A stretch of DNA of 63,472 bases, from NCBI GenBank assembly GCA_021199355.1, contig JAJQIF010000014.1:1-63472 (forward strand). The letters are read 5' to 3'. This stretch comes from Oscillospiraceae bacterium. Lineage in GTDB: Bacteria; Bacillota; Clostridia; Oscillospirales; Ruminococcaceae. A model generated the notes under the pieces. It had not been told where the DNA came from. It worked only from the letters and a program-made list of their open reading frames with translations, and did not search any database. Position 1 is the first letter of the stretch; each line of letters opens with the position of its first letter. The position numbers were made by a program, and so were the translations under genes. This document shows positions 8,991 to 22,431 of the stretch, in pieces.

Positions 8991-9428
8991 TCAATACCAG
9001 CCGTAGCCAAGTTCAGCCATCCCCCAAAGACCATAGAGAACGCCGTACAAGATGGACGATATAATCGCCACGAGAATCGCCACGCCGGAGCAAGCGATAC
9101 CTGCGATTGCCATTGCCTTATTGCCCTTGTGCTTGACTATGACATAAATGCCCAGAACACAGCTTACTATTGCAAGAATAAACGAAAATGTGCCGGCACA
9201 GCAGGAAAGCACGAGCGAGCAGATACCGGTTACCATCGAGGCGATTGCCAGACCGTTGCCGGCACCGAGCAGGTCATCAGCCGGGCGATTCTGGCGATAT
9301 CCGCCGTTACCACCCTGATTATTTTGCTCATCATCCTGAACTACATATTCATTATGGACCTTTTCCCCGCAAGCCGAGCAGAAGGACGCACCCTCGGGGA
9401 TTTCATTTCCGCAGTTTGTACATTTCAT
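8991..9428 (-). CDS. Zinc-ribbon DUF4190-like membrane protein
   Basis: A 145-residue protein with an N-terminal zinc ribbon (CTNCG and CSACG, residues 3-22), a polar linker and two hydrophobic hairpins typical of DUF4190. It is first in a two-gene operon with the DUF2752 gene, behind an exact consensus promoter. The pairing of the two families suggests an envelope role, but function is unknown. Confidence 0.8.
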   Translation of the reverse strand: MKCTNCGNEIPEGASFCSACGEKVHNEYVVQDDEQNNQGGNGGYRQNRPADDLLGAGNGLAIASMVTGICSLVLSCCAGTFSFILAIVSCVLGIYVIVKHKGNKAMAIAGIACSGVAILVAIISSILYGVLYGLWGMAELGYGWY

Positions 9429-9477
9429 AATTCTATCTCCTTATCGTGAAACCAAAATGCCGATTGCCTTTTCGATT

Positions 9478-9506
9478 ATTATACTCTTAAACCCGGGTTC
9501 TGTCAA
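9478..9506 (-). promoter_or_regulatory. Consensus promoter of the zinc-ribbon/DUF2752 operon
   Basis: TTGACA (9506-9501), 17-bp spacer, TATAAT (9483-9478) on the minus strand. Confidence 0.8.
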
Positions 9507-9534
9507 TACTCATAAGTCAACATTTGTGGAAAGC

Positions 9535-9566
9535 TTGCCCTCCGCACCACAAAGCACGGAGGGCAA
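9535..9566 (-). terminator. Perfect 10-bp hairpin after the Fn3 gene
   Basis: TTGCCCTCCG (9535-9544) pairs with CGGAGGGCAA (9557-9566). The T-run is poor on both strands, so it may stabilise the transcript end rather than terminate efficiently. Confidence 0.5.
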
Positions 9567-9602
9567 ATTTGTATAGATATTTCTCCTTCTGTCTGACTTT
9601 GA

Positions 9603-10310
9603 TTATGGTGCCGTTATAGTGGCAACCTCGGAATCTTCGCCGCAGATTTCAACCTTGAAATCATAGCTCACGCCCGACTTAAGACCGACGATGTTTACTC
9701 TATTCCCAACGACAGTGCCGGCAACCTTCCACTCATCCGAAGATGAACGCTTCCAGTAAACAGTATAGTTCTCGTCTGAGATGTCCGCCCAAGAGAGCTT
9801 GACCTTACCGTTGGAGACAGTGGCATCGAGGTTTTGGGGAAGACCGGCGAAGACGTTCCATGCCGGGAAGAAATCACCGTTATCATCGCACCAATCAGGG
9901 ATGAGAGATTCAATCTCACCTAAAGTGTCAACATGGTCTACGACGTAAACCCTTGTGGTCCCCAGTATCTGCGAGGGATAGCTTTCCAAGACATCACCGG
10001 TATAGGTCATGGCAATTATGTCTCCCATAGAGATGTCTTCCATTGTAATTTCGCCGTCGGCGTTGAGAAGCTCTGTGTCTGCCTTTACCGTAGCAGTGCA
10101 AAGACCACGATGATTGATGTCGTTGACATTAAGCTCGCATAGTTGAAGATAGTTGTAGTCTGTACTTGCGTCTATGACAAGAGCATAAACCGTTGTCCCC
10201 TCTTCGGGTGCGATTTCCGAAATGTCGGGAAGTTCCAAGCCGAAAGCCGCCACCGACATCACCGTCACGAGCATAAGTCCTGCCAAAAGCATTGCGAATA
10301 ATTTTTTCAT
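9603..10310 (-). CDS. Secreted protein with a C-terminal fibronectin type III domain
   Basis: 235 residues. The start at ATG 10310 follows AGGAGG, and a signal peptide (MKKLFAMLLAGLML then VMSVAAFG) spans residues 1-27. Residues ~30-140 form an all-beta region with no recognised family. Residues ~150-235 match a fibronectin III fold, with VKLSWADISDENYTVYW and the terminal GLKSGVSYDFKV. It is expected outside the membrane with no visible anchor. Its upstream region closely resembles the one before the small membrane protein gene at 52786, suggesting shared regulation. Confidence 0.75.
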   Translation of the reverse strand: MKKLFAMLLAGLMLVTVMSVAAFGLELPDISEIAPEEGTTVYALVIDASTDYNYLQLCELNVNDINHRGLCTATVKADTELLNADGEITMEDISMGDIIAMTYTGDVLESYPSQILGTTRVYVVDHVDTLGEIESLIPDWCDDNGDFFPAWNVFAGLPQNLDATVSNGKVKLSWADISDENYTVYWKRSSSDEWKVAGTVVGNRVNIVGLKSGVSYDFKVEICGEDSEVATITAP

Positions 10311-10333
10311 TGTGATTCCTCCTTGAAAAAGCA

Positions 10334-10374
10334 TTTTCTACTTATAAAACACATTGAGAATGCGAATTATTGCA
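10334..10374 (-). promoter_or_regulatory. Upstream element shared with the operon at 52.8 kb
   Basis: Read on the minus strand from TGCAAT (10374-10369) down to TAGAAAA, about 30 of 41 positions match the region 52849-52809 without gaps. Both lie 63-64 nt before their start codons. A common alternative-sigma (ECF-like) or activator-dependent promoter is inferred. Confidence 0.5.
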
Positions 10375-10513
10375 CTCCTCCAAAAAAATTTTCGAGAAAT
10401 TTTAAGCGTGGCATGAAAACGAAACAAGCTGAATATGATATAGCAAACGTACGAGTTACGCACTTTTCAATTTGCGGGTTCGTGGGAAAACGGTGCCCGC
10501 TCAGGAGGAGATT

Positions 10514-12046
10514 ATGGATTACAAAGTTACAAAAGAAAACTTCACCGTACCGAGTCGCTTAGGCGGCGGGGTCAGTCAGCAGTCGGTGGAGCTTGACTAC
10601 ATACTGCCCGACTATTATCCCGAGATTTTCAAGGTCCTGAACCTTAGAATCCTGCCGAGCATTTCCGCAAGGACTCTGAACGGCACAAGGCTTGAATATG
10701 AGCTGTCGGCGAAGATAAGGCTCACCTATGTTTCCGAGTCGGGAGAGATGTGTGCGGCGGAGCAGGTGCTCACCTATAACCGCTCGGCGGAGCTTTCGGG
10801 GGCGGCAAAGTCGCCAAAGATAAGCATCATGCCCTATACCGAGAGCGCAAGCTGTCGGGTCTCGGGCAAGAGAAGAGCGGACATAAGAGGAATTATTTCC
10901 GTTTCCGTCACGGCGACCGCAGACGAGGCGAGGCAAGCTGTTTCGGAGGCTTCGGGCGACGGGTTACAGCTCAGAAAATCGCTCGTCACATATCCTTCAA
11001 AGAGAATCGCCGTCACGAAGAGAATCACGGTTGTGGACGAAGTGGACCTTGGGCAGTCAAAACCGGCGGTAAAAACGGTAATACGAGCCGATGCCGCAGT
11101 CATCACCGCAGACAAGAAGATTCTCTCGGGGAAGCTTCTGACGAAGGGCGAAGCGGAGGTCTCGCTTCTGTATGTCCCGGAAGACAGTTCAAACAAAGCC
11201 GAAAGCATTCGCTTCGCTGTCCCCTTCTCGCAGATTTCGGATGTCGAAGGGCTGGACGAAAGATATGACGTGATGATTTCGGCGAACGTTTCCGACTGCG
11301 AAATTAAGCCGTCGGGAAAGAGCGGCAACAACACCGTCAGCTGTGAGCTCAATATCGAGATAAGCTGTCTTGCGATGAGGTTCGAAAGCGTGCTGATTGC
11401 AACGGATGCCTATTCGACCGTCTATGAATCGAGCCTTGAGATGAGCGAGGAGGATATCGAATGCGTACCGCAGGAGATTTCGGAGAGCTGCAAGACGAAG
11501 GCATCGCTCACCTACTACGATGGTGAAATCGTTTCCGTAATGTGCGCCGGTGCGGAGGTCGGGAAGCTTGATGCGGTGACAGATACGGATGGGAGCGTTT
11601 CGGTTCGAGGTCGGATTACCTACTTCGCCTATGCCGAGAACGAATCCGGAAAGCCGATTTATCTTGAAGGGACGGACGAATTCGAGAAGAAGCTTCCGGA
11701 AGAGGCTTCGAGCTGTTCGATTGATGCTCATGCAACGGTCGCTCAGACAGCTTTTAAACTGACCTCTTCGAATGCGATGGAGATTACAGCCGACATAAGG
11801 CTCAAGGGCTATCTCTTCGGGTGCAAGACGCACAGGTTCATAAGCGGCATAACCGTCGACGAGGCGAGCCCGCTCGAAAAAGACTCAGACATTGCGATGA
11901 AGCTCTACTATGCCGAGAAGGGTGAGGAGCCATGGGACATCGCGAAGAGGACGCACACAACCTTGTCGGCTATCACCGAAGAAAACGACCTCGGCGAGGA
12001 GATTCTGACGGAGCCGAAGATGATACTCATACCGATTGTAGATTAG
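10514..12046 (+). CDS. sipL: SipL-like spore coat protein: SPOCS (DUF3794) repeats plus LysM
   Basis: 510 residues: repeated all-beta SPOCS/DUF3794 domains across residues ~10-440, ending in a LysM domain (~455-505; GEEPWDIAKRTHTTL and ILIPIVD). In Clostridioides difficile, SipL has this architecture and its LysM domain binds SpoIVA to tether the coat to the forespore. The gene directly upstream of spoIVA, 6 nt apart, supports the same partnership here. Start ATG 10514 follows AGGAGGAG. Expression in the mother cell during sporulation is expected by analogy; no confident sigma-E promoter could be picked. Confidence 0.88.
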   Translation: MDYKVTKENFTVPSRLGGGVSQQSVELDYILPDYYPEIFKVLNLRILPSISARTLNGTRLEYELSAKIRLTYVSESGEMCAAEQVLTYNRSAELSGAAKSPKISIMPYTESASCRVSGKRRADIRGIISVSVTATADEARQAVSEASGDGLQLRKSLVTYPSKRIAVTKRITVVDEVDLGQSKPAVKTVIRADAAVITADKKILSGKLLTKGEAEVSLLYVPEDSSNKAESIRFAVPFSQISDVEGLDERYDVMISANVSDCEIKPSGKSGNNTVSCELNIEISCLAMRFESVLIATDAYSTVYESSLEMSEEDIECVPQEISESCKTKASLTYYDGEIVSVMCAGAEVGKLDAVTDTDGSVSVRGRITYFAYAENESGKPIYLEGTDEFEKKLPEEASSCSIDAHATVAQTAFKLTSSNAMEITADIRLKGYLFGCKTHRFISGITVDEASPLEKDSDIAMKLYYAEKGEEPWDIAKRTHTTLSAITEENDLGEEILTEPKMILIPIVD

Positions 12047-12052
12047 GAGAAT

Positions 12053-13534
12053 ATGATGACTACCGATAAACTTTACCAAAGTATTTCAGAAAGAACCGGC
12101 GGCGACATCTACATCGGTGTCGTCGGACCGGTGAGAAGCGGAAAATCGACATTCATACGACGGTTCATGGAAAGCCTCGTTATCCCGAACATCAAAGAGG
12201 GCTACCTCAAGGACCGCACTGTCGACGAGCTCCCGCAGGCATCTGCCGGAAAAATGATCATGACCACCGAACCGAAATTCATCCCCGAGGAGGCCGTGCA
12301 GGTTACGCTCGGCGACGTGGCGAGCGTGAGCCTAAGGATGATTGACTGCGTCGGGTATGTGATTCCGAGCGCCGTCGGGTATATCGAGAACGACTCTCCG
12401 AGGATGGTGCGAACACCGTGGTTTGAGTCGGAGATTCCCTTTAACATGGCGGCGGAAATCGGGACGCAGAAGGTCATCACCGAGCATTCGACAGTCGGGA
12501 TTGTGATAACCTCCGACGGCAGTGTATCTGATCTTCCGAGGGACGAATACGAGGAGTGCGAAGAGAGGGTTATAAGCGAGCTATGTGACCTCGGGAAGCC
12601 GTTTGTCGTGCTGATGAACACCCAGAACGAACAAAGTGCTGAGGCGATTTCGTTATGCTCAGAGATGAGCGAAAAGTACGGCGTGCCGGTAATGCCGATT
12701 AACGTCCTGACGATGACTAAGGAAGACATAGAAAGCATTCTCACCGAGCTTCTGTATGCCTTCCCTGTCAAGGAGATAAACGTAGTGATGCCGAAGTGGG
12801 TCAGTTCCCTCAAGAAGGGGCACTGGCTCAAGGCGGAGCTTTACGACTCGATAAGAAAAGCCGCCCCGGAGCTCAGGTATATCAGGGATATAAAGAAGCT
12901 TTCGGAGACGGTCGGGTGCTGTGAGGATGTGTTGGGCTCCGAGATTACGAAAGTCGACCTTGGGAACGGCACCGCACGGCTCGGGGTGACGCTCGACAAC
13001 AGGCTGTTTTATCAGATTCTGAGTGAGGAAACCGGGCTTGAACTAAATTCAGAAGACGAACTGATGCCGAAGATATTGGAGCTTGTGAATTTCAGGCAAA
13101 GACTCGAGAAGTTCTCGGAGGCGCTCGAGCAGGTCGAGCAGACGGGCTATGGAATCGTGATGCCGACCGAAAGCGAGCTCACGGCATTCGAGCCGGAGAT
13201 TATCAGGCAGGGCGGCAAGTACGGCGTCCGGTTCACGGCGAGTGCGCCATCGATTCACCTCATCAAGGCGGATATCGCTGCGGAGGTGGCGCCGATTGTC
13301 GGGACCGAGAAGCAGTCGGAGGAGCTGATACAGTATCTCATGACCGACTACGAGACCGACCCTCTTAAGATATGGGAAACGAACATCTTCGGGAAATCCG
13401 TGAGCGAACTTGTCGAGGAAGGACTCGAGCAGAAGCTGGCAAGGCTCCCCGACGACGCGAGGGAGAAGCTGAGAGAGGCAGTCGAGCGGATAGTCAACGA
13501 GGGCTGTTCGGGACTGATTTGCTTGCTTGTATAG
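12053..13534 (+). CDS. spoIVA: Stage IV sporulation protein A (coat morphogenetic ATPase)
   Basis: 493 residues, the usual SpoIVA length. SpoIVA binds and hydrolyses ATP, polymerises on the forespore surface and forms the coat basement layer. The Walker A GPVRSGKS is at residues 25-32, followed by the conserved TTEPKFIPEEAV and DCVGY segments and the LMNTQN motif. Two adjacent ATGs exist (12053 and 12056); AGGAGA at 12045-12050 is only 2 nt from the first, so 12056 may be the true start. It follows sipL by 6 nt and ends at a strong hairpin, so the two form a dedicated coat operon. Confidence 0.95.
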   Translation: MMTTDKLYQSISERTGGDIYIGVVGPVRSGKSTFIRRFMESLVIPNIKEGYLKDRTVDELPQASAGKMIMTTEPKFIPEEAVQVTLGDVASVSLRMIDCVGYVIPSAVGYIENDSPRMVRTPWFESEIPFNMAAEIGTQKVITEHSTVGIVITSDGSVSDLPRDEYEECEERVISELCDLGKPFVVLMNTQNEQSAEAISLCSEMSEKYGVPVMPINVLTMTKEDIESILTELLYAFPVKEINVVMPKWVSSLKKGHWLKAELYDSIRKAAPELRYIRDIKKLSETVGCCEDVLGSEITKVDLGNGTARLGVTLDNRLFYQILSEETGLELNSEDELMPKILELVNFRQRLEKFSEALEQVEQTGYGIVMPTESELTAFEPEIIRQGGKYGVRFTASAPSIHLIKADIAAEVAPIVGTEKQSEELIQYLMTDYETDPLKIWETNIFGKSVSELVEEGLEQKLARLPDDAREKLREAVERIVNEGCSGLICLLV

Positions 13535-13542
13535 TTACAAAA

Positions 13543-13577
13543 ATACCCATCGAATCACGTCGATGGGTATTAATTTT
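13543..13577 (+). terminator. Bidirectional terminator after spoIVA
   Basis: ATACCCATCGA (13543-13553) pairs perfectly with TCGATGGGTAT (13560-13570), flanked by A-rich and T-rich tracts, between convergent genes. Confidence 0.85.
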
Positions 13578-14811
13578 ATTCTTCTATCATTGCTGTGTCG
13601 TAGCCCATAAGCTCGATTGCCGATATGAGGTCGTCGGTTATTTCACAGCCGGTTATCTTCGGGATTATTGTTACTCCCGTGCCGTCGAGAGATTCTTCAA
13701 CGAGATTGAAGACGGTTCTGAACAGATAGGCGGTGTTGAGCCCTTCAAACGAGACTTCCGTGCCGTCGGCTTTTGATATTCTGGTGCCGATGCTACCGGG
13801 GTTGAAGTTGACGTAAATGACACTTGTGCAAAGAGAATCTGTGTCGGTCAGGATTTCGGCGTCGCCGGAGATGATGTCCTCGGCGTCAACCTCGATATAG
13901 AACTCCTTGGCAGAGCCGAAGCTGTTATAGACCGTCTCGGCAAACGAGACGAGGGTCTGGTATCTCGTCGAGGACGCCACATCGGTGCCGGAGAAGTAGT
14001 TACGGATATCGGAATTTCTGAACGGCGGGAACTCGATTTCGCCTGCTATCAGTCCAACGAAGCCGGCATCGGAGATTTCGGAAACGAGGCTTTCGATATA
14101 CTCCGTAGCCGTCGAGCTGTATGGCGAAATCCACGGTTTGCCGCCGTTGGCGGTGTTGTCGTCGTACCAACGGGTGTCGGTGCCGGTTATCATGTAGGCA
14201 AGGGTCTTGTCATAGGTCGAAGCGATGTTGTCCGAAAGAGTCGAGATCCTGGCATATGCCGTGAGCCCCGAATCTGTGATAGTCGAGACCAATGCGGATA
14301 AATCAGATATTCCGCCGGTTACTACTGCGCCTGCTTCAATAGCGGTGGTGTTGGCGGACGAATAAGTTACCGCTCCGCCCTCGGCGATGAGCTCGACGCA
14401 GACGCCGCTATAGCCGTTCTGTGCGGCATATTCCACAGCCGAATAAACATAGCTCTCATAGTCGGCGATATCGCTTGAGTAAGAGATATAGTAGATGTTA
14501 TTTGTAACGGCGACGGTCGGCTCCGGCTCCTCGGTCGTGGCTTCAGTAGTCGCAGAAGTTGCGGCGGTTGTGGTGTTTTCCGTCGTTTCAGACGTGTCGT
14601 TCGAGGATTCCGTGCCGGAATTCACGGGCGTGTCACGCTCCCCCGACAGGAACTCGACAATCGGCTTGCCGACGCTGTAGCCGACGAAGACAAGCGCCGC
14701 AAGAAGTATAATCATGAATATAATACCCAGAACCGAATTGCCCTTTTTGCGCTTTTGCTTGAACATCGGTTTGGAAGAGTGTTTTACCTTGTATTTCCTG
14801 GAGTTTGCCAT
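13576..14811 (-). CDS. Membrane-anchored putative glycoside hydrolase (DUF4015-like)
   Basis: 411 residues. A basic N-terminus, one transmembrane helix (~30-50) and a Thr/Glu/Ser-rich linker (~55-95) put the rest outside the cell. Residues ~100-411 resemble the DUF4015/putative glycosyl hydrolase fold: the opening YYISYSSDI strand, then GVCVELIAEGGAVTY where the family has a conserved VIDVK-type strand. The usual acidic pair is not obvious, so catalytic activity is uncertain. It is the last gene of the rpe-rnfDEA operon, 9 nt after rnfA. Confidence 0.65.
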   Translation of the reverse strand: MANSRKYKVKHSSKPMFKQKRKKGNSVLGIIFMIILLAALVFVGYSVGKPIVEFLSGERDTPVNSGTESSNDTSETTENTTTAATSATTEATTEEPEPTVAVTNNIYYISYSSDIADYESYVYSAVEYAAQNGYSGVCVELIAEGGAVTYSSANTTAIEAGAVVTGGISDLSALVSTITDSGLTAYARISTLSDNIASTYDKTLAYMITGTDTRWYDDNTANGGKPWISPYSSTATEYIESLVSEISDAGFVGLIAGEIEFPPFRNSDIRNYFSGTDVASSTRYQTLVSFAETVYNSFGSAKEFYIEVDAEDIISGDAEILTDTDSLCTSVIYVNFNPGSIGTRISKADGTEVSFEGLNTAYLFRTVFNLVEESLDGTGVTIIPKITGCEITDDLISAIELMGYDTAMIEE

Positions 14812-14820
14812 AGAACTCTC

Positions 14821-15399
14821 CTACCTTCCCAGTGCATAGACCACCATGGAGACAATGCCTATATACAGTACATGTATCGGAAAGCCCGAAAATGAGGCGG
14901 GAACCTCATCGGAGTTGAGCTTTTCGTAATTTACGGAAAGAATATATGCGGCGAGTGCGAAGCCGATTCCAACTTCGAGTCCGAAAAGGACTCTCTCCCC
15001 CAGACCGCCGCCGATGAGGGTGTCGTTGAAGAGCACGCTTAAAACAGTGCAGTTGAATGCCGACAGATGGATATATCTTTTGACTTTATTGAACGCCTTT
15101 TTTGAGACGAACCAGATAACAAGGAGCGTGGCGATATAAACCAGCCCAAGTGATATTATATACAGTGTCGGCAAAAATCTTGCCGAAATATCGCTCTTAA
15201 GCATCAAGCCTTCGAAGACGTAAGCTATCATGCTCGATAAAACCGAGAATTCGGTTATGAAGAGACCGCAGAAGAAAATCTGACCGTCGCGCTTGGAAAG
15301 GCTGATTAATGTGCTCGTTCCGAACGCTGTTGTGAATATTACGTTTTCGACGATTATGGCGAGCAATGCCGCTCCGATTGTCTCGAAGAAGACAGCCAT
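14821..15399 (-). CDS. rnfA: RnfA-like membrane protein with changed iron-ligand site
   Basis: 192 residues, six predicted helices, with family matches across the full length: GTSTLISLSK in place of the LGLCPFMGVSK type, the NCTVL motif, and DEVPASFSGF near the C-terminus like DVPAPFRG. In Rnf/Nqr the first-helix cysteine and the NC cysteine help bind a membrane-embedded iron centre. Here the first is replaced (FGTSTL) while the second (FNCTVL) remains. It sits in an operon with rnfD- and rnfE-like genes but no rnfB, rnfC or rnfG. Confidence 0.75.
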   Translation of the reverse strand: MAVFFETIGAALLAIIVENVIFTTAFGTSTLISLSKRDGQIFFCGLFITEFSVLSSMIAYVFEGLMLKSDISARFLPTLYIISLGLVYIATLLVIWFVSKKAFNKVKRYIHLSAFNCTVLSVLFNDTLIGGGLGERVLFGLEVGIGFALAAYILSVNYEKLNSDEVPASFSGFPIHVLYIGIVSMVVYALGR

Positions 15400-15430
15400 T
15401 CATATACACCCTTTCCTTTGATTTCCGAAA

Positions 15431-16111
15431 TCAGCTATCCTTGTTTTTGGCGGAAAGCCTGAGAATCCACCTGTATGCGGCAGAGGTGAGCGCAAGAAGG
15501 ATAAATCCGCCATAGACCGTCCCGGCAGATGGAATACTGAGCGGCAGGAACTGCACTCCGAAAAGACCGCCGTTTGTCAAGAGCTCACGCATGAAGCCGA
15601 GGAACAGGAGCGCCAGATCATAGCCGATGATATAGAAGCCGCAGAGCTCCGCCATGAAGCCACGTCTGAGGCGGTAGAACTTCGATTCGGTCTTCATCGT
15701 GATGAACGAGTTTGTGATTAAGAGCGGCGCATATACTCCGAGTGCCGAGAACTGCGCCGGCATGATGTTCTCCATAAGTATCGCGACGGGAACATATACG
15801 AGCGACGCCACAAAAGTATAAACTATTATTCTGACGGTATAGACGAGCTTTCTCGGGACGAAGGAGCAGATTAAAACCGTTATGAACGTCACAAGACTGA
15901 ACACGATGCAGAGCGCCAGTGCGTTCTGGAAGCTTGTTGCGACAACTACCGCCGGAGCGATTATCGAGCCGGTTGAAAGGAGGGCATTCGACGTTAAGAC
16001 CGCTTCCTTGCCTGCGGTGCTCGCCTGAGAAGGAACAAGACCGTGGAGGTCGCTTATGTCGGAGACGGAAGCATCTTTGCGTTCCGAAGACCTGAAGCCG
16101 TTAATCTTCAT
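15431..16111 (-). CDS. rnfE: RnfE-like membrane protein lacking both iron-ligand cysteines
   Basis: 226 residues from ATG 16111, which follows AAAGGACGG and overlaps the rnfD stop by a few bases. The family backbone is clear: IIAPAVVVATSFQNAL aligns with the LCPLLAVTS...NAL segment, and APLLITNSFI with IPLIVTNCIV. Both cysteine positions are substituted (C to A and C to S). FMRELLTNGGLFG matches the conserved LREIIGNGTLF loop. The fold seems retained while redox chemistry is likely lost. The N-terminal ~30 residues are polar and cytosolic-looking. Confidence 0.75.
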   Translation of the reverse strand: MKINGFRSSERKDASVSDISDLHGLVPSQASTAGKEAVLTSNALLSTGSIIAPAVVVATSFQNALALCIVFSLVTFITVLICSFVPRKLVYTVRIIVYTFVASLVYVPVAILMENIMPAQFSALGVYAPLLITNSFITMKTESKFYRLRRGFMAELCGFYIIGYDLALLFLGFMRELLTNGGLFGVQFLPLSIPSAGTVYGGFILLALTSAAYRWILRLSAKNKDS

Positions 16112-17189
16112 CCGAGTCACCGTCCTTTCCGGTATTCTCTTCTATTTCAGTAGAAGATTCTTCGTTATCGGGAAGATTCTCGTATTTCTTGAATCTGCGA
16201 TAGATATAGTAGTCTTCGATTTTCGTGACGGCATAATTGCGGAACTTATCGAGGCTGTCGGTAACAAAGATTGCGAACTGGTCGAACTCGGACGGGAAGA
16301 TGGAAACTACCATCAGAGCCAGGACAGAGCTGTCCTCGTAGCCGGAGAACTTTCTGAGGAGAAATGCCGTAAGTCCGTAGGCAAAGCCATAGAGCACCTG
16401 CCCGAAGCCGTTCGACGGAGCGAAGCACGGGTCGCAGACCATGAACGTAAGAACGTACATATATGAGCCGGTGACAATAGAATAGAGCGCCGCCTGCCAT
16501 CCGGTTGCGGAAATCGGGAACAGGATGAATAGGAGCACTTCGGTTGCAATTCCCGAGAAGAGCACCGGTGCGGGGATATCACGGAAGCAATAAAGCGCAA
16601 TCGTGACGATGAGAATCAGTATTACACAGCTCGTGCCCATCGGTCCTGCGAGCTTGCCCCAGAGGATATCGAGCCAGCTTGATGAGCTGAGAGAAACGTC
16701 GACATAGTGGGTGAATGAACGATCCAATGCATCCGTCAGGCTCTCGGAAAGTGAGAGGTTGCCGAAGACAGCCGGTGTCGGGTATCTTAATACGCTTGAA
16801 GGCCAGCAGAGCGCCGATAGGAGATATGCCGTTGCGACGGGGTGGAAAATCCGGTTATGATGCCCGCCGAAAGCATACTTCATGACGGATGACATGAAGG
16901 CGCTTGCGAAAATCATGACGCCATAGGGAACGGATGCGGGCATAAGAAGTGCAAGCATGATTCCGTTTGCATAGGGCGACGGGTCGCGCCAGTCGTATTT
17001 TCTTCTCATAAGAGAATTGCATACATATTCGGTCAGGAGGCTTGTGGCGACGGAAATGGCAACAACAATCAAAGCCCTCAGCCCGTAATAGTAATATGGC
17101 AGGACGCAAAGTGTCAATAAGAAGCAACAGAGTCTTAGGTATCTGTGCCTTTCTGTTTTTCCGATTGATGTTACGACTGTGTCTGAAAT
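16101..17189 (-). CDS. rnfD: RnfD-like membrane protein, probable non-ATG start
   Basis: Up to 362 residues, polytopic. GLRALIVVAISVATSLLTEY and DWRDPSPYANGIMLALLMP match the RnfD/NqrB N-terminal half, and FMVCDPCFAPSN the C-terminal half. The flavin-attachment SGAT motif is not seen; VSLSSSSWL occupies that place. No ATG or GTG fits the N-terminus: TTG 17117 would lose the first helix region, whereas ATT at 17189 lies 9 nt after AAGGACGG, the same ribosome binding site used by rnfE. The C-terminal ~50 residues are an acidic tail. The ORF begins 21 nt after the rpe stop. Confidence 0.65.
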   Translation of the reverse strand: MSDTVVTSIGKTERHRYLRLCCFLLTLCVLPYYYYGLRALIVVAISVATSLLTEYVCNSLMRRKYDWRDPSPYANGIMLALLMPASVPYGVMIFASAFMSSVMKYAFGGHHNRIFHPVATAYLLSALCWPSSVLRYPTPAVFGNLSLSESLTDALDRSFTHYVDVSLSSSSWLDILWGKLAGPMGTSCVILILIVTIALYCFRDIPAPVLFSGIATEVLLFILFPISATGWQAALYSIVTGSYMYVLTFMVCDPCFAPSNGFGQVLYGFAYGLTAFLLRKFSGYEDSSVLALMVVSIFPSEFDQFAIFVTDSLDKFRNYAVTKIEDYYIYRRFKKYENLPDNEESSTEIEENTGKDGDSDED

Positions 17190-17210
17190 GGTGGTTTACC
17201 GTCCTTGTGT

Positions 17211-17846
17211 TTAGTCTTTCAGAAGCTTGCAGTTTGAAGCCATGTCGGCGGCTCGGAACAGGTATGAGCCGGAAACCAGGACATTCGCTCCCGCTTCTCT
17301 TACGAGGTGAGCTGTTTTGTCGGAGATGCCGCCATCAACCTCAATATCCAAGTCAGAAGAATATTCCCGAAGAGCCTTTATCTTCTCAAGGGTTTCATAG
17401 ATGAAGCCCTGACCGCCGAACCCGGGCTCGACCGTCATTATAAGTGCCATGTCCATTATTCCGACAAGAGGATATAAAAGGCTAACATCGGTTTTCGGCT
17501 TGACGGAAACGCCCGCCTTGAGTCCGAGAGAATGGATTTTATCTATAATCCCGACAGGATTCGCCGTGGCTTCGAGGTGGAATGTGATTCCGTCGGCTCC
17601 CGCCTTGGCGAACGGCTCAATATAGGCGTTCGGGTCGCTTATCATGAGATGAACGTCGAACGGGAGCCCAGAATACTTCCTGATTGATTTAAGAACCGGC
17701 ACGCCGTAGCTGATATTTGGGACGAAGTGACCGTCCATAACGTCGAAATGTATCATATCGCATCCGGATTCTTCGGCTCTTGTGAGCTCGTCCGAAAGGT
17801 GACCGAAATCCGCCGAAAGAATTGATGCTGAAACTAAAGTCTTCAT
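17211..17846 (-). CDS. rpe: Ribulose-phosphate 3-epimerase
   Basis: 211-residue TIM-barrel enzyme of the pentose phosphate pathway interconverting ribulose 5-phosphate and xylulose 5-phosphate. The motifs HFDVMDGHFVPN and VEPGFGGQGF hold metal-binding and phosphate-binding residues. ATG 17846 follows GGGAGGAAAG; the upstream in-frame extension has no family similarity. It is the first gene of the operon leading into the Rnf-like trio. Confidence 0.93.
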   Translation of the reverse strand: MKTLVSASILSADFGHLSDELTRAEESGCDMIHFDVMDGHFVPNISYGVPVLKSIRKYSGLPFDVHLMISDPNAYIEPFAKAGADGITFHLEATANPVGIIDKIHSLGLKAGVSVKPKTDVSLLYPLVGIMDMALIMTVEPGFGGQGFIYETLEKIKALREYSSDLDIEVDGGISDKTAHLVREAGANVLVSGSYLFRAADMASNCKLLKD

Positions 17847-17883
17847 TTCTTTCCTCCCTGATAGTGCCTGACTATCCACCATC

Positions 17884-17913
17884 ATTATACAGCAAGTACA
17901 CGTCGGTTGTCAA
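17884..17913 (-). promoter_or_regulatory. Promoter of the rpe operon
   Basis: TTGACA (17913-17908), 18 bp, TATAAT (17889-17884) on the minus strand. Confidence 0.65.
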
Positions 17914-18011
17914 ACAATCTTTGGTTACAAAACGGTTACTAAAAAGCAAAATATTGCCGACTATTCAGCGCCGATATCGGTCAAATTGACAAAGACAGAG
18001 CTTCAAATCCG

Positions 18012-18034
18012 AAAAGCCGCCATTTCCGGCGGCT
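18012..18034 (-). terminator. Minus-strand terminator hairpin of a short upstream transcript
   Basis: AGCCGCC (18034-18028 side) and GGCGGCT form a 7-bp stem with a 6-nt loop, followed on the minus strand by TTTT. No gene of normal size lies between this and the next minus-strand terminator at 18156, so 18035-18150 may hold a short transcript or leader. Nothing further is recognised there. Confidence 0.55.
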
Positions 18035-18155
18035 GTTATATAATCGGCAGGGATTCATGGCTCTTCTCTCCCCTTCTGAAACTGATTTTGTGAGCCTCCT
18101 GCCGTTAGTTTATATTATTCTGGAGTCGTCCGAACGGTTACAAAAACCGGAAACC

Positions 18156-18180
18156 AAAAAGGGAGCGGATAACCGCTCCC
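18156..18180 (-). terminator. Terminator of the 18.2-18.85 kb transcript
   Basis: GGGAGCGG and CCGCTCCC pair perfectly (18161-18180), followed on the minus strand by TTTTT. Confidence 0.85.
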
Positions 18181-18849
18181 TCATTATATCAATTTATCAC
18201 CATATGCTGTGCGCCTAAGACGTATCGTCAGCGCTTTGTCGCCTTGGTATCAGGTTTTAACTTAGCTTACTTCATCACGTCCAGGCTATTAAATAAACCT
18301 CACGCATGAACCATGTTATCGTCAAAGCTTGGTATCGTCAGATATTATCACTGATGCGACTACAGCCAATTTAAAGTCTTTGTTGGACTCACCCTCTCAC
18401 TGCTAGATTTTGATTTCCTTCTTGTGAAACAGTTTCATGGTGCATCAAATCCTTTCGGGCTTTAAACCTTTTTGATTCGGATTTTCTTGATTTATGTTGG
18501 GCAAGATATTTTCTTGCTGTTACAGAATCAATTTCATAGCTTTTATCTTTTATCTTGAGAAATTGGTTTCGTACCTAAGAGAACATCTCGTAATGTGTCA
18601 AGTATAAAGATTCTATTACTTTTGAATCTGTGAGTCGGTAAGAGTTATGCTGAGAATGCCGGACTCACCTCTTTCGTTTTATTTCAGTCGTAAATTCCGC
18701 TTCTTGCTACTCTTAATACTTTCATAACAATCGCTCCTTTGCTTTTAAGACGCGGTGTTATTTGCCTGTGATTCTGAAGATTTGTTACCTCTTCATCGGA
18801 ACCCTCTCCCTTTTAGATTTCAGTGACTTTTTATTTATCTCTCTTCTGT
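18156..18849 (-). ncRNA. Candidate ~690-nt non-coding or dual-function RNA
   Basis: An exact consensus promoter at 18884-18856 and a strong terminator at 18180-18156 enclose ~690 nt with no ORF over ~60 codons starting at a usual codon. Two very short ORFs have plausible start contexts: 18725-18684 (13 codons, AAAGGAGCG before ATG) and 18438-18403 (11 codons). A GAG(A/G)GGTGAGTCC segment follows each. TATCGTCA (plus-strand reading) occurs three times (18223, 18317, 18333) and CTTGGTATC twice, with GACG-ATA-CGTC and GTGAGTC/GACTCAC hairpins. No tmRNA, RNase P or SRP hallmark is seen. It could be a structured RNA, a leader-peptide RNA or a decayed gene. Confidence 0.45.
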
Positions 18850-18855
18850 GATTGT

Positions 18856-18884
18856 ATTATAACACACCCGAATTCAAATGTCAA
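18856..18884 (-). promoter_or_regulatory. Exact consensus promoter of the candidate RNA
   Basis: TTGACA (18884-18879), 17 bp, TATAAT (18861-18856) on the minus strand. A promoter this close to consensus is typical of stable RNA genes. Confidence 0.85.
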
Positions 18885-18986
18885 TAGGTTTTTCAAACTT
18901 TTTTCAAATTTTTTTGTGGAATTTTTCTGAAGGGCTCGTGTTATCTTTTGAATATAAATTTGAGCGGTTTCTACACAAAAGTACCA

Positions 18987-19015
18987 TTGACAAACCCGCA
19001 AGTTTTCACTATAAT
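18987..19015 (+). promoter_or_regulatory. Exact consensus promoter of the DUF1292 gene
   Basis: TTGACA (18987-18992), 17 bp, TATAAT (19010-19015), about 35 bp before the start codon and divergent from the candidate RNA promoter. Confidence 0.85.
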
Positions 19016-19049
19016 AGAATCAAACCTATTTGCAAAGGAGATTACCACC

Positions 19050-19412
19050 ATGGATGAAAACGAATATATGCCCGAAATCTATACCCTTGAGGACGAAGAG
19101 GGCAATGTCGGCAACTATGAGCTTATAGACATTTATGACGAAGGCGACAACACCTATTATGCACTTGCCCCCTACTATGAGAATCCCGAGGATCTCGTGA
19201 ACGACAACGGCGAGTTCATCATTCTGAAAGTAGAGGACACCGGCGACGAGATCACTCTTGTTTCCATCGAAAGCGAAGAGGAGTATGACAGACTGGGACA
19301 GATCTTCATCGACAGATTCGACAACTGGGACGACGAGTGTGAGTGCGACTGTGAAGATGACGACTGCGATTGCGACGACGAGGATTGCTGCTGCCATCAT
19401 CACGAAGAGTAA
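19050..19412 (+). CDS. DUF1292 protein with a Cys/Asp/His-rich tail
   Basis: 120 residues from ATG 19050 (AAAGGAG upstream). Residues ~5-80 match DUF1292, a small acidic fold of unknown function widespread in Firmicutes (IYTLEDEEGNVGNYELID, FIILKVEDTGDEITLVSI). The last ~25 residues alternate Cys, Asp and Glu and end CCCHHHEE, about seven Cys and three His, which looks like a metal-binding or metal-sequestering tail not typical of the family core. The protein is very acidic. Monocistronic. Confidence 0.8.
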   Translation: MDENEYMPEIYTLEDEEGNVGNYELIDIYDEGDNTYYALAPYYENPEDLVNDNGEFIILKVEDTGDEITLVSIESEEEYDRLGQIFIDRFDNWDDECECDCEDDDCDCDDEDCCCHHHEE

Positions 19413-19468
19413 AAACTTCGCATAGAATAGCTCAGGTGAGTTATACTAACCTTAGAATCCATTCTGCC

Positions 19469-19496
19469 TTGCTCGATTAAGCATGGTTTTTATAAT
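19469..19496 (+). promoter_or_regulatory. Promoter of the probable 6S RNA
   Basis: TTGCTC (19469-19474), 16 bp, TATAAT (19491-19496). Confidence 0.55.
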
Positions 19497-19502
19497 CCAA
19501 CA

Positions 19503-19652
19503 CATATATTTAGGGAATCTCGCTCCGGGCGCGGGGATGCAGACCTCCCAAAGTACGCACGGTTGATGCCCCCGCACGACCCTGTTCAAGTACTGAGGAC
19601 GAAGGGAGCACGAAACGTCAGGGCTGATACCCACCTGCTTCGTGCGGGTTTT
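19503..19652 (+). ncRNA. ssrS: Probable 6S RNA
   Basis: A ~150-nt transcript predicted from its promoter and terminator. It can fold as a long rod: CTCCC/GGGAG and GTAC/GTAC stems flank an asymmetric internal bubble, outside which GGGGATGCAGAC faces GTCAGGGCTGATACCC. A rod with a central bubble mimicking an open promoter is the 6S RNA design, and the 3' GGGCTGATACCCACCTGC segment resembles the 6S closing strand as I remember it. ACCTGC/GCGGGT with a T-run closes the 3' end. If correct it binds the housekeeping RNA polymerase holoenzyme in stationary phase. The call rests on structure and memory, not a covariance search. Confidence 0.55.
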
Positions 19653-19693
19653 ATGTATCATGTGGCGACAAGGCGGAAGCCCCCAAAAATTAA

Positions 19694-19726
19694 CGGCTGA
19701 TACTCAAACAGTACCAGCCGCTTTTT
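19694..19726 (+). terminator. Bidirectional terminator hairpin
   Basis: CGGCTGATAC (19694-19703) pairs with GTACCAGCCG (19711-19720) with one mismatch, followed by CTTTTT. It can also serve the minus-strand XRE gene ending at 19737. Confidence 0.75.
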
Positions 19727-19736
19727 CGTGCTTATT

Positions 19737-20315
19737 TTAAACAGATGCGAATATCGCCGCTATAAAGCATCCAAGGGCAACAATAGCACAGATTGTGATA
19801 ATGATTGCCGCCATCTTCTTCGAGAGCTTGCCGCTTTGCTTCACTTTTGAAAGAATATCTATTGTGTAGAGGAACGATACCAGCAGAGCGCTGAATGCCA
19901 AGCCCATCGAAGCTCCCATAATGAAGTCTACGACCGGAAGATGGTCTGAGTCGTCGGTCACCATAACTATAAAGCACAGCACAACCGCAATAATGCCCAC
20001 TATACTCGTTGTTCTGACCCGTTTTAAGAGTGTTGCCTTGTCCTCTTCGGCATATTCGGCAACCGCCTTGAGGTTTTTCTTTTCTTCTTCGTTCATGTTC
20101 TCGCTTTTCCTTTCTCCGTTGATGATTTCACGGATGTCGCAGTTATAAAAGTCCGCAAGCTCGATAAGTGTACTTATGTCCGGCAGGTTGCTCCCCGTCT
20201 CCCAACGTGAAACCGTCCTGTTTGAAACATAGAACTTCTCGGCAAGCTGTTCCTGTGTGAGCCCCTTTTCTTTTCGGAGCTCTTTTAAAAATTCGCCAAT
20301 TTTCTTCTGATTCAT
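19737..20315 (-). CDS. XRE-family regulator with a membrane-embedded C-terminus
   Basis: 192 residues from ATG 20315 after GGGAGGG. Residues ~3-60 form a canonical helix-turn-helix (LRKEKGLTQEQLAEKFYVS then TVSRWETGSNLPD). After a short charged linker come three hydrophobic segments (~95-115, ~125-150, ~165-190), so the DNA-binding domain is tethered to the membrane. Such proteins often sense envelope stress. It may autoregulate through the inverted repeat AATAACACG/CGTGTTATT at 20361-20396. Confidence 0.85.
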   Translation of the reverse strand: MNQKKIGEFLKELRKEKGLTQEQLAEKFYVSNRTVSRWETGSNLPDISTLIELADFYNCDIREIINGERKSENMNEEEKKNLKAVAEYAEEDKATLLKRVRTTSIVGIIAVVLCFIVMVTDDSDHLPVVDFIMGASMGLAFSALLVSFLYTIDILSKVKQSGKLSKKMAAIIITICAIVALGCFIAAIFASV

Positions 20316-20360
20316 GTTTTCCCTCCTTTCTTGCCCTAAGAATAGCACTTCGGGCAGAAA

Positions 20361-20396
20361 AATAACACGACATAAAGCGAGAAATGCCGTGTTATT
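20361..20396. promoter_or_regulatory. Possible operator upstream of the XRE gene
   Basis: Nine-base inverted repeat AATAACACG (20361-20369) and CGTGTTATT (20388-20396), spaced by about 18 nt, 45-80 bp upstream of the regulator start. Confidence 0.4.
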
Positions 20397-20415
20397 GATA
20401 ACTTTTCAGTGTCTG

Positions 20416-20988
20416 TTAATCCGCCGCTCGGGTTTTATTCGCCTTCTTGGTAAACCTGACGAGTCCCGTTTTATTGAGGGCGACCATGATGGCGGGGATG
20501 AGGATGAGCTGAATTATGATTCCGGGGATTGCTTCAAGGACTGCACCTGAAATAAATGCGCTCCATGTGAAGCTGTTGCCCCTGATGCCGAGAAGGATTA
20601 TCTCGGCGACGCCCCAGACAAGTCTTCCGGCAATCATGGCGGCTATCAGACTGCGGTAAAGCGAAACTATGCACTTCCACTTGGATGCGGCATAGAGGAT
20701 GCCGATTACCGCGCCGTAGGTTGCAAGCTCAAACGCCATTGCTATGGCTGATGGATAGAGCACCGGTCTGCCGAAAAGCAGGCTTCTCAGAAGTGGGGTT
20801 ATAAAGCCGACGGCAAGTCCGTGCTTCCAATCGCAGATAAGCCCGCAGAGAAGCACCGGGATGTGCATCGGGAGAAGCATGTTGCCGATTTCGGGAATCT
20901 GCCCCGTCAGGAACGGGAGAACGAGCCCGATGGCTAAAAACATTGCGGATAGGGTCAGGTTGATGAGGCTTTTGCGGGATTTTGTCAT
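20416..20988 (-). CDS. ECF transporter S component
   Basis: 190 residues, six predicted helices. GNMLLPMHIPVLLCGLICDW and FITPLLRSLLFGRPVLYPSAIAM are typical of substrate-specific S components of energy-coupling-factor vitamin transporters, with the small-residue helix-packing motif near the N-terminus. The T and A subunits are not in this window, so a group II arrangement sharing a distant ECF module is inferred. Ligand unknown. It follows ruvX by 31 nt. Confidence 0.82.
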   Translation of the reverse strand: MTKSRKSLINLTLSAMFLAIGLVLPFLTGQIPEIGNMLLPMHIPVLLCGLICDWKHGLAVGFITPLLRSLLFGRPVLYPSAIAMAFELATYGAVIGILYAASKWKCIVSLYRSLIAAMIAGRLVWGVAEIILLGIRGNSFTWSAFISGAVLEAIPGIIIQLILIPAIMVALNKTGLVRFTKKANKTRAAD

Positions 20989-21019
20989 TGGTGGGGTTAC
21001 TCCTTATGGATAAATTAAA

Positions 21020-21448
21020 TTAGTTTGCAAGCCCTTTCTTCTTCCTGTACTCAAGGTAATTCTCAAGAATGAGGGTTGCGGCGACGGTGTCGATTACGGC
21101 TTTGCGCTTTTTGCCCCGGACGTTGGTTTCGTTCAGGATGCCGATGGCTTCGACGGTCGTGATGCGCTCGTCCCAGAGGGCGGTTTCGATTCCCGAAAGT
21201 TCCGAAAGCTGAGCTGCGAATTCGCGGCACTTGTCTGCTCGCTCGCCCTCGGAACCGTCCATGTTTTTAGGCAATCCGACGACTATAAGCTCAGTGCCGA
21301 GTTCATGCGCCTTATCAGCTATTTTTTGAAGCAAGCGCTCACGGTTCCATTCTGAGATAGTCCCGACGGGAGAGGCGATGGATTCGCCCTTATCGCAGGA
21401 GGCAAGACCGGTTCTGGCATCTCCATAGTCAACGGCGAGAATTTTCAT
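21020..21448 (-). CDS. ruvX: RuvX/YqgF-family putative Holliday junction resolvase or pre-16S rRNA nuclease
   Basis: 142 residues from ATG 21448. VDYGDARTGLA at the N-terminus, the IVVGLPKNMDGSEG loop and the DERITTVEA motif are the RNase H-like family marks and supply the acidic metal ligands. Current knowledge favours a role in 16S rRNA 5'-end maturation. It begins 7 nt after glk. A longer frame reaching 21682 only reads through glk in another frame and is not used. Confidence 0.92.
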   Translation of the reverse strand: MKILAVDYGDARTGLASCDKGESIASPVGTISEWNRERLLQKIADKAHELGTELIVVGLPKNMDGSEGERADKCREFAAQLSELSGIETALWDERITTVEAIGILNETNVRGKKRKAVIDTVAATLILENYLEYRKKKGLAN

Positions 21449-21455
21449 AGGTTTC

Positions 21456-22406
21456 CTACTTTCTGCTTCTGCCGAGGAATGCCGCGCCGATGATTCCGGC
21501 GTCGTTTCCGAGAGATGCACGGACGATTTCGGTATTACGGGAGCCGCGCTTGGTATAGACCTCGTTTGCGACACGTTCCTTGAGAGGCACAAGAAGAGCG
21601 TCGCCCTCGTTGCAGACGCCTCCGCCGATGCAGAGAACCTCCGGCTGGAAGATGTTGATGACGTTTGCAATGCCGGTGGCAAGATACTTGATATACTTGT
21701 CGACGACCTCCTTCGCCGCCTCGTCGCCCGCTCTCATCGCGTTGAAGGCAAGCCTGCCGGAGACATGGTCGCCCATCATTTCGTGCATTTTCGATTCGGG
21801 GTGCTCAGCCATAGCTTCCTTGGTCATGCGGATAAGACCCGTTGCGGACGAGTAAACCTCGAAGCAACCGTGTCTGCCGCAGGTGCAAAGAGGTCCGTCA
21901 ACCTCGATGACGGTGTGACCGAGCTCGGCGCCGGCATAGTTGAAGCCGGAATAGATTTTGCCGTCGATTACGACTCCTCCGCCTACTCCCGTTCCGAGAG
22001 TTATGCAGACTGCGCTGTTGGCGTTCTTTGCGCTTCCGGCAACGTATTCGCCGTATGCCGCCGCATTGGCGTCGTTTTCGGCATAAATGGGCTTCCCAAG
22101 CTCGTTATAAAGAAGCTCGCCGACTGGGATGTCGTAGAAGTCGAGGTTGTTTGAATATTCGATATATCCCCTGTCGCTGTCGATGGTTCCGGGGGAGCCC
22201 AAGCCGACCGATTCGATATCGTCCATCGAAAGACCGGCGTTCTCGACAGCCTCGTGGGAGACCTTCGCCATGTCTTTTATAATCTCTTCTGCAGGTCTGG
22301 GGCAGTTGGTGCGGGTCGAAGCCCTCGCTACAATTTCATAGTTTTCGTTGACGACTCCGGCGACGATGTTGGTGCCGCCGAGGTCGATTCCAATATAGTA
22401 TTTCAT
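21456..22406 (-). CDS. glk: ROK-family glucokinase
   Basis: 316 residues from ATG 22406 (AGGAGC upstream). GIDLGGTNIVAG is the ATP phosphate loop, ENDANAAAYGEY carries the catalytic aspartate and CTCGRHGCFEVYSS is the ROK zinc-binding CxCGxxGC signature. It phosphorylates glucose at C6 in the cytosol. Middle gene of a pepF-glk-ruvX-ECF-S cluster; the gap to pepF is 25 nt. Confidence 0.92.
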   Translation of the reverse strand: MKYYIGIDLGGTNIVAGVVNENYEIVARASTRTNCPRPAEEIIKDMAKVSHEAVENAGLSMDDIESVGLGSPGTIDSDRGYIEYSNNLDFYDIPVGELLYNELGKPIYAENDANAAAYGEYVAGSAKNANSAVCITLGTGVGGGVVIDGKIYSGFNYAGAELGHTVIEVDGPLCTCGRHGCFEVYSSATGLIRMTKEAMAEHPESKMHEMMGDHVSGRLAFNAMRAGDEAAKEVVDKYIKYLATGIANVINIFQPEVLCIGGGVCNEGDALLVPLKERVANEVYTKRGSRNTEIVRASLGNDAGIIGAAFLGRSRK

Positions 22407-22431
22407 TCTTAGATTGCTCCTGTTAAAATAG

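Follow-up and report, generated by a model that had tools for sequence, protein, structure and literature searches.

Rnf-like genes in the window

We analysed a stretch of 63,472 nucleotides from contig JAJQIF010000014.1 of Oscillospiraceae bacterium GCA_021199355.1 (hereafter the window, whose positions are used for all coordinates). It carries a minus-strand run of five genes: rpe, three genes for relatives of the membrane subunits RnfD, RnfE and RnfA, and a gene for a DUF4015 protein. We call the three rnfD', rnfE' and rnfA', with products D', E' and A', and use the prime for their counterparts elsewhere. As judged from sequence comparison, the trio is almost certainly the reduced state of one old Rnf paralogue, a derived family that we term Rnf' and whose fuller form is C'D'E'A'. 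We hold the claim of a family to be strong; the function is inferred.

In the direction of the run, rpe (ribulose-phosphate 3-epimerase; 17211..17846; PF00834, E = 8.9e-71) is followed by rnfD' (16101..17189; PF03116, E = 9.5e-44, profile positions 17-289 of 296), rnfE' (15431..16120; PF02508, E = 2.6e-21), rnfA' (14821..15399; PF02508, E = 2.6e-16) and the DUF4015 gene (13576..14811; PF13200, E = 4.3e-10). The products of the three central genes are an RnfD/NqrB-like protein of 362 amino acids if begun at an ATT codon, an RnfE/NqrD-like protein of 229 amino acids from a GTG, and an RnfA/NqrE-like protein of 192 amino acids. All three also matched RnfA, RnfD and RnfE chains of the PDB, to which they are homologous over most of their length. 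These coordinates and Pfam matches bear out a preliminary description of the locus as a D-E-A trio between rpe and a DUF4015 gene. That description also reported rnfB, rnfC and rnfG to be absent, and a profile search indeed found none of the three among the open reading frames of the window. The separate complete rnf locus that it proposed to look for exists: contig C12 of the same genome carries canonical rnfCDGEAB and an apbE-like gene. No rnfB, rnfC or rnfG gene was found elsewhere that clearly belongs to the trio.

The frame of rnfD' contains no ATG, GTG or TTG before the first helix. An ATT codon at 17187-17189, preceded by a AAGGACGG stretch, lies at the same position in 10 of 10 close relatives. 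Translation very likely begins at this ATT at 17189, a rare start codon, and not at the TTG at 17117.

Loss of cofactor ligands

In the C. tetanomorphum Rnf structure, the iron site is reported to be held by Cys25 and Cys113 of RnfA together with Cys26 and Cys109 of RnfE; RnfD carries flavin mononucleotide (FMN) on Thr153, and its riboflavin is flanked by Asn124 and Asp248 (PMC9588780). Mutants of A. woodii in the AE1 cysteines and in RnfD N123 and D249 are described as non-functional (PMC11889175). To compare these columns, we aligned 54 paralogue sequences (29 from the genus of the window and 25 from other genera) with those of 15 canonical loci.

At the first RnfA cysteine the window has a serine codon (FGTSTL, 15313..15315), and Cys was present in none of the 54 paralogues versus 14 of 15 canonical sequences. 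The second RnfA cysteine is kept (FNCTV, 15049..15051), as it is in 38/54 paralogues and 15/15 canonical sequences. RnfE has an alanine codon at its first cysteine (IAPAV, 15956..15958) and a serine codon at its second (TNSFI, 15707..15709); Cys occupies the former in 2/54 paralogues (loci L098 and L103) versus 15/15 canonical sequences, and the latter in 0/54 versus 14/15. The two E' sequences that alone keep the first cysteine are long frames with N-terminal extensions (L098:5667-6725 and L103:5226-6428). Where a locus encodes both A' and E' (53 loci), the A/E iron site retains at most one of its four cysteines, the number found in the window.

The flavin site of RnfD is altered as well. The column of the FMN-bearing Thr153 holds a serine codon in the window (16716..16718), and threonine preceded by alanine occurs there in 14 of 15 canonical sequences versus none of the 54 paralogues. 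Four paralogues have threonine in that column in another context (L087, L088, L093 and L099), the nearest being the SSQT of L099, and the D' of L043 contains an SAAT elsewhere in the protein than the FMN column. Arg130, near the FMN, is present in all 15 canonical sequences versus none of the 54 paralogues. The losses proposed in the preliminary description (the first-helix cysteine of RnfA, both cysteines of RnfE and the SGAT flavin motif of RnfD) are thus all seen in the aligned columns, where no shifted cysteines or SGAT were found; for RnfA it had named the first cysteine only.

The riboflavin ligands have fared differently. The Asn124 column is a histidine codon in the window (16842..16844) and the Asp248 column still encodes aspartate (16431..16433). 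Asparagine is found in 15/15 canonical sequences and 1/29 members of the window's genus; it is kept at 11 of the 12 loci that also encode an RnfC homologue (RnfC', below) and at 8 of the 13 other-genus loci that do not. The corresponding counts for the aspartate are 29/29 in the genus, 10/12 and 8/13, and both ligands are retained at many loci of other genera. The Glu of the RnfE GRAE motif is kept in 29/29 genus members and 11/25 others.

One genome (G053) carries, on its contig 9, a divergent second rnfCDGEAB set (L068), the one canonical row of the alignment without Cys at the first RnfA and the second RnfE position; it has no GxGGAGFP, with RnfG and RnfB present; the same genome also has a more usual rnf set (L069).

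Subunit content and descent of Rnf'

We compared 55 paralogue loci, no two with identical D', using the 15 canonical loci as reference. In other genera, the genes at the loci we retrieved are ordered rpe-(rnfC')-rnfD'-rnfE'-rnfA'-(DUF4015). Profile searches found RnfG and RnfB at none of the 55 paralogue loci versus both at 15 of 15 canonical ones; a smaller search gave a single weak RnfB-profile match of 22 bits, on the opposite strand, at L101. RnfC' was present at 12 of the 55 loci and not found at 43, one of which (L056) is cut by a contig end. None of the 12 RnfC' proteins contains GxGGAGFP; searched with this strict pattern, 10 of 15 canonical proteins have it, and a fragment is among the five that do not. 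We take this motif to be the one for FMN and reduced nicotinamide adenine dinucleotide (NADH) in RnfC. A search of 299 genomes of the phylum with an RnfC' profile reached a top score of 237 bits, within the range where divergent RnfC' and canonical RnfC overlap.

The A' and E' trees each comprised 32 of the 54 sequences, to which PDB chains were added, four of RnfA/NqrE and three of RnfE/NqrD. A' forms one clade (100/99), and so does E' (100/96). A tree of RnfD from 37 of the 54 sequences, with all sequences from within the order, splits canonical from paralogous proteins (100/100). Because RnfC'-bearing loci lie near the base of the tree when it is rooted on the canonical side, RnfC' would appear to be ancestral and to have been lost several times, with the forks near the base partly unsettled. 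The genus of the window has additionally lost RnfC' and, in 28 of 29 members, the riboflavin asparagine.

The paralogue is not the oddity of one genome, an idea rejected by matches in the genus, the order and the family. All 30 searched genomes of the same genus gave two A' matches each, one with 52-100% identity and the other with 20-25%, the level of canonical RnfA. Across the order, 26 of 245 genomes had a match above 120 bits, of which 22 (the window included) were confirmed at the locus and four (G102, G157, G194 and G246) are counted by score alone. Since scores just under 120 bits do not separate paralogue from canonical RnfA (G244, at 117.8 bits, proved a paralogue on inspection of its locus, L103, and G162, at 119.2 bits, proved canonical, L104), this count is a lower bound. 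Locus-confirmed paralogues occur in families f1 (that of the window), f24, f5 and f23.

A wider profile matched 203 of 297 genomes of the window's family at E<=1e-36. Canonical RnfA can also score in the range from 1e-36 to 1e-39 (that of the window's own genome gives 1.1e-38), which holds five of these matches. Setting the five aside, 198 of the 297 genomes bear the paralogue as judged by score rather than locus inspection. Among 398 genomes from across the phylum, just two scored above the canonical range, that of the window and G058, which belongs to the same order; divergent members outside the order could sit beneath that range.

Coexistence with canonical Rnf

The paralogue is INDEPENDENCE from canonical Rnf: 28 of 30 paralogue-bearing genomes have four PF02508 genes, that is, both RnfA/E sets. 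The other two, G234 and G031, have the paralogue PF02508 pair only and a single PF03116 gene each, and FMN_bind gave no match at E<=1e-3 in either. G234 is 99% complete in 2 contigs; its sole RnfD-type gene and its two RnfA/E-type genes are all of the paralogue, and it has no canonical RnfD, RnfE or RnfA. Its best match to the rnfB model is partial (41 bits, positions 94-179). For comparison, the match of this model to rnfB in the genome of the window reaches 60 bits (positions 3-92), itself below the cut-off. G031, which is 84% complete, has a lone rnfB-like gene (61 bits, L118:4088-4882) that lies away from other rnf genes, between neighbours that by eye are zapA-like and serS-like.

Neighbouring genes

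On one side of the cluster, rpe lies upstream on the same strand within our set limits at 51 of 55 loci. The four exceptions are L093, where it overlaps by 50 base pairs (bp), L056 and L073, which are at contig ends, and L103, with none in reach. The gap between rpe and rnfD' is 21 bp in the window, with no mecA. Outside the genus, rpe is in reach at 23 loci. At 10 of these it abuts the cluster (-50 to 74 bp; L065 and L102 show a 4 bp overlap), and at the other 13 the two are 525-691 bp apart. An opposite-strand gene sits inside the gap at 10 of these 13; the four that were run against Pfam matched MecA (2.3e-8 to 2.9e-26). In the window's genus a shortened mecA-like gene was seen at 8 loci, with weak matches of 12-27 bits, and was not found in the window's own subclade. 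Loci with an opposite-strand mecA-like gene between rpe and the rnf' genes include L046, L087, L089, L095 and L098.

The preliminary description had placed the trio in an rpe operon and proposed a conserved synteny on both sides. Co-transcription of rpe with the rnf' genes is a plausible arrangement for the window as well as for several lineages, and an operon fits the abutting genes at 10 of the 23 other-genus loci; because the opposite-strand mecA intervenes at 10 other-genus loci, the link to rpe is not a fixed operon. The synteny held on the DUF4015 side. There, a DUF4015 gene follows rnfA' at 46 of 55 loci, at a distance of 9 bp in the window; it was missing downstream at L042, at a contig end, and at all but one of the nine f24 loci. 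In genome-wide searches of family f1, a DUF4015 match lay at the locus in each of the 19 genomes with the paralogue, and the three paralogue-negative genomes gave no match.

The DUF4015 protein of the window has a short basic N-terminus, a single transmembrane helix by hydropathy (residues 26-44), a linker rich in Ser, Thr and Glu, and an ectodomain with an altered motif. It scores 39.6 bits and passes the curated PF13200 cut-off of 27 bits, under which a genus member, that of L046, falls with 22.7 bits. The Lys of the VDIKD motif and the Asp of the FDYIRFP motif are each present in 0/29 genus members, 24 of which have GExEFPPFR; outside the genus, the Lys is present in 16/16 proteins and the Asp in 2/16. 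Since these motif residues are lost, glycosidase activity is doubtful in the genus, where the protein is likely, though only likely, a dead enzyme. This qualifies the "glycosidase-like" partner of the preliminary description, as does the lack of the gene downstream at those f24 loci.

L103 encodes a 134-amino-acid transmembrane protein in place of DUF4015. At L065, where DUF4015 is missing, a large secreted-looking protein (L065:5952-8324) follows A' and has a relative in L102; its N-terminus may resemble TasA/camelysin-type proteins. In the window, sipL-like and spoIVA genes (10472-13534) converge on the DUF4015 gene, and the pair is also near the cluster in many loci of the genus. A sporulation link through these neighbours was considered and set aside as uninformative: 32 of 33 genomes have spoIVA, whether or not they carry the paralogue.

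Selection and regulation

We estimated ratios of nonsynonymous to synonymous substitution (dN/dS) by the Nei-Gojobori method between the window and six relatives and for up to three further independent pairs; synonymous divergence (dS) exceeded 1 in many pairs. The ratios were 0.07-0.16 for D', 0.07-0.13 for E', 0-0.13 for A' and 0.06-0.13 for DUF4015, beside 0.05-0.14 for rpe and 0.02-0.04 for SpoIVA. With dN/dS near 0.1, the genes look functional, which argues against decay.

Control by a riboswitch or other RNA element was not supported: an Rfam search at gathering thresholds gave nothing in positions 9000-24000 of the window, and, in a scan of 20 of the 55 paralogue loci, nothing but tRNAs and one Gut-1 RNA. 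Control by Rex was considered too. For rpe of Caproicibacterium lactatifermentans, the predicted Rex site is listed as weak and expression as raised on lactate (PMC9600882 Table 1). Rex control was not supported at the paralogue loci: most best matches were at chance, and the lowest shuffle fractions (0.01 for L088 and 0.04 for L102) come from many tests with shuffles that preserve base composition only.

Possible function of Rnf'

In Rnf, electrons are described as passing from RnfB through the A/E cluster to the FMN of RnfG, on to the FMN and riboflavin of RnfD, and then to RnfC (PMC11889175). Of this route, Rnf' apparently lacks RnfB, the A/E cluster, RnfG and the FMN of RnfD, and forms with RnfC' would retain the cytoplasmic end of the route only, namely the RnfC' clusters and the riboflavin pocket. 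Rnf' is very probably not a transmembrane electron carrier.

D', E' and A' would still come together in the membrane as a heterotrimer, like their Rnf counterparts D, E and A. RnfD and NqrB have been described as related to ammonium/urea transporters (PMC12174285; PMC9588780), and we liken D' to that fold through RnfD/NqrB, a relation taken from the literature only. Because the heterotrimer would contain such a subunit along with the inverted A/E pair, our preferred reading is a channel or secondary transporter, built from the RnfD fold and the A/E pair. Its anchored DUF4015 ectodomain would be the outside partner, binding or handling a glycan or substrate. If no electrons cross the membrane through it, we put a transporter or channel of some kind a little short of an even chance. 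The fuller proposal, in which the complex moves an ion or small solute without redox chemistry, as a channel or secondary transporter, and the DUF4015 ectodomain is its outside partner, is somewhat more tentative. More speculative again is the history that would go with it, in which a respiratory pump turned once, long ago, into an independent class of non-redox transporter that has a partner of its own outside the cell and is conserved in much of one family, with the C'D'E'A' intermediates showing the stepwise loss of the electron path.

Several observations weigh against this proposal. The RnfA positions of the Na+ site, Thr110 and Thr111, are each Thr in 0/54 paralogues, so that a Na+ path of the Rnf type is not supported, and data from A. 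woodii are reported to argue against Na+ movement by RnfD (PMC11889175). A crude hydropathy count gave 5, 4 and 5 strong peaks for D', E' and A' versus 8, 6 and 6 for their canonical counterparts. Confidence in the predicted structures is low, with a predicted local distance difference test (pLDDT) score of 34.9 for D' and 52.7 for the DUF4015 protein. The partner is itself missing at the f24 loci noted above, and the lone rnfB-like gene of G031 speaks against full redox independence in that species. Finally, two CxxCxxCxxxC (4Fe-4S) motifs are present in 12 of 12 RnfC' proteins, and the loci that encode them mostly keep the riboflavin Asn and Asp, so that some members of the family may have retained electron handling at the cytoplasmic face. 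The riboflavin Asn is retained at 8/13 other-genus loci without RnfC' as well.

The motifs and ligands of the RnfC'-bearing loci would fit a redox-gated or redox-sensing module with C'D'E'A' as its basic form, in which electrons would pass from the 4Fe-4S clusters of RnfC' to riboflavin in D' only, to gate a channel or act on a regulator, and the window's genus would have lost the redox half. We regard such a module as rather unlikely: its 4Fe-4S motifs are universal in RnfC', though GxGGAGFP is found in none, and the riboflavin ligands are common where RnfC' is present (Asn 11/12, Asp 10/12), but RnfC' was not found at 43 of 55 loci and the Asn persists where RnfC' is missing.

Unlikely, too, and a shade more so, is a role without any transport, with the trio as a membrane platform for the DUF4015 ectodomain or as a regulator of canonical Rnf. 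The tight coupling of A' and DUF4015 in the window and the presence of both RnfA/E gene sets in 28/30 paralogue-bearing genomes would suit such a scaffold or modulator; a genome with no canonical RnfD, RnfE or RnfA (G234) and the f24 loci with no DUF4015 downstream do not.

The trio might instead borrow canonical RnfB, RnfC and RnfG and still pump, given the full canonical set in the same genome and the stand-alone rnfB-like gene of G031. The Fe-S site and flavin attachment are gone at every aligned locus, however, and in G234 nothing of the RnfG type was matched and the rnfB model gave partial matches only, which leaves a hybrid pump very improbable. A decaying duplicate without function, for which one could cite the parts lost along the family, is hardly credible when dN/dS is near 0.1 for the trio and for DUF4015 alike (nine pairs per gene, dS being high in many) and the paralogue is present, by score, in 198/297 family genomes.

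Relation to known systems

Compared with the Rnf complex, a ferredoxin:NAD+ oxidoreductase (PDB 7ZC6, 9ERI and 8AHX, among others), D', E' and A' are homologous over most of their length, and the gene order C-D-E-A is common to both. Rnf' differs in having no RnfG or RnfB, in the loss of the Fe-S cysteines, the FMN threonine and Arg130, in an RnfC' that is either without GxGGAGFP or absent, and in its neighbours (rpe, mecA and DUF4015). The Na+-NQR (7XK3) has homologues of A', E' and D' in NqrE, NqrD and NqrB; unlike Rnf', it stayed a redox pump, and its shown chains keep the cysteines. A' and E' fell outside the NqrE and NqrD groups, in clades of their own, in trees with one NQR sequence each. 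The nearest precedent is NQR itself, described as an Rnf duplicate that lost RnfB (PMC4014512); its RnfC homologue, NqrA, is described as without cofactors (PMC12174285). The DUF4015 partner belongs by score with the putative glycosyl hydrolases of PF13200 (4S1A), from which the genus differs by the missing motif Lys and Asp; a direct match of the window protein to 4S1A was not significant (E = 0.17).

The reviews that we consulted discuss Rnf and NQR, and we found no description of such an Rnf paralogue in the openly searchable literature, which does not cover subscription papers and preprints. The preliminary description had called the trio an orphan. It is Rnf-derived and its ligands are missing, as stated there; the loss is not a lone one, and a wider paralogue with RnfC' exists elsewhere. 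What is new here, beyond the earlier view of a single locus, is that the trio represents one old paralogue of Rnf in reduced form.

Anaerobes rely on Rnf as a central complex for energy conservation, and its presence is commonly read from rnfA, rnfD and rnfE genes. Because a conserved paralogue without the electron path is present, rnf annotation can mislead in these bacteria. The family also offers a natural experiment on which parts of the Rnf core work without cofactors, and on whether the A/E pair or RnfD alone can move ions or solutes; published models differ, placing the Na+ path in RnfD (PMC9588780) or in A/E (PMC11889175). Many bacteria of one order keep under selection, usually beside a normal Rnf, a second set that has lost the parts for carrying electrons across the membrane and probably does a different job there.

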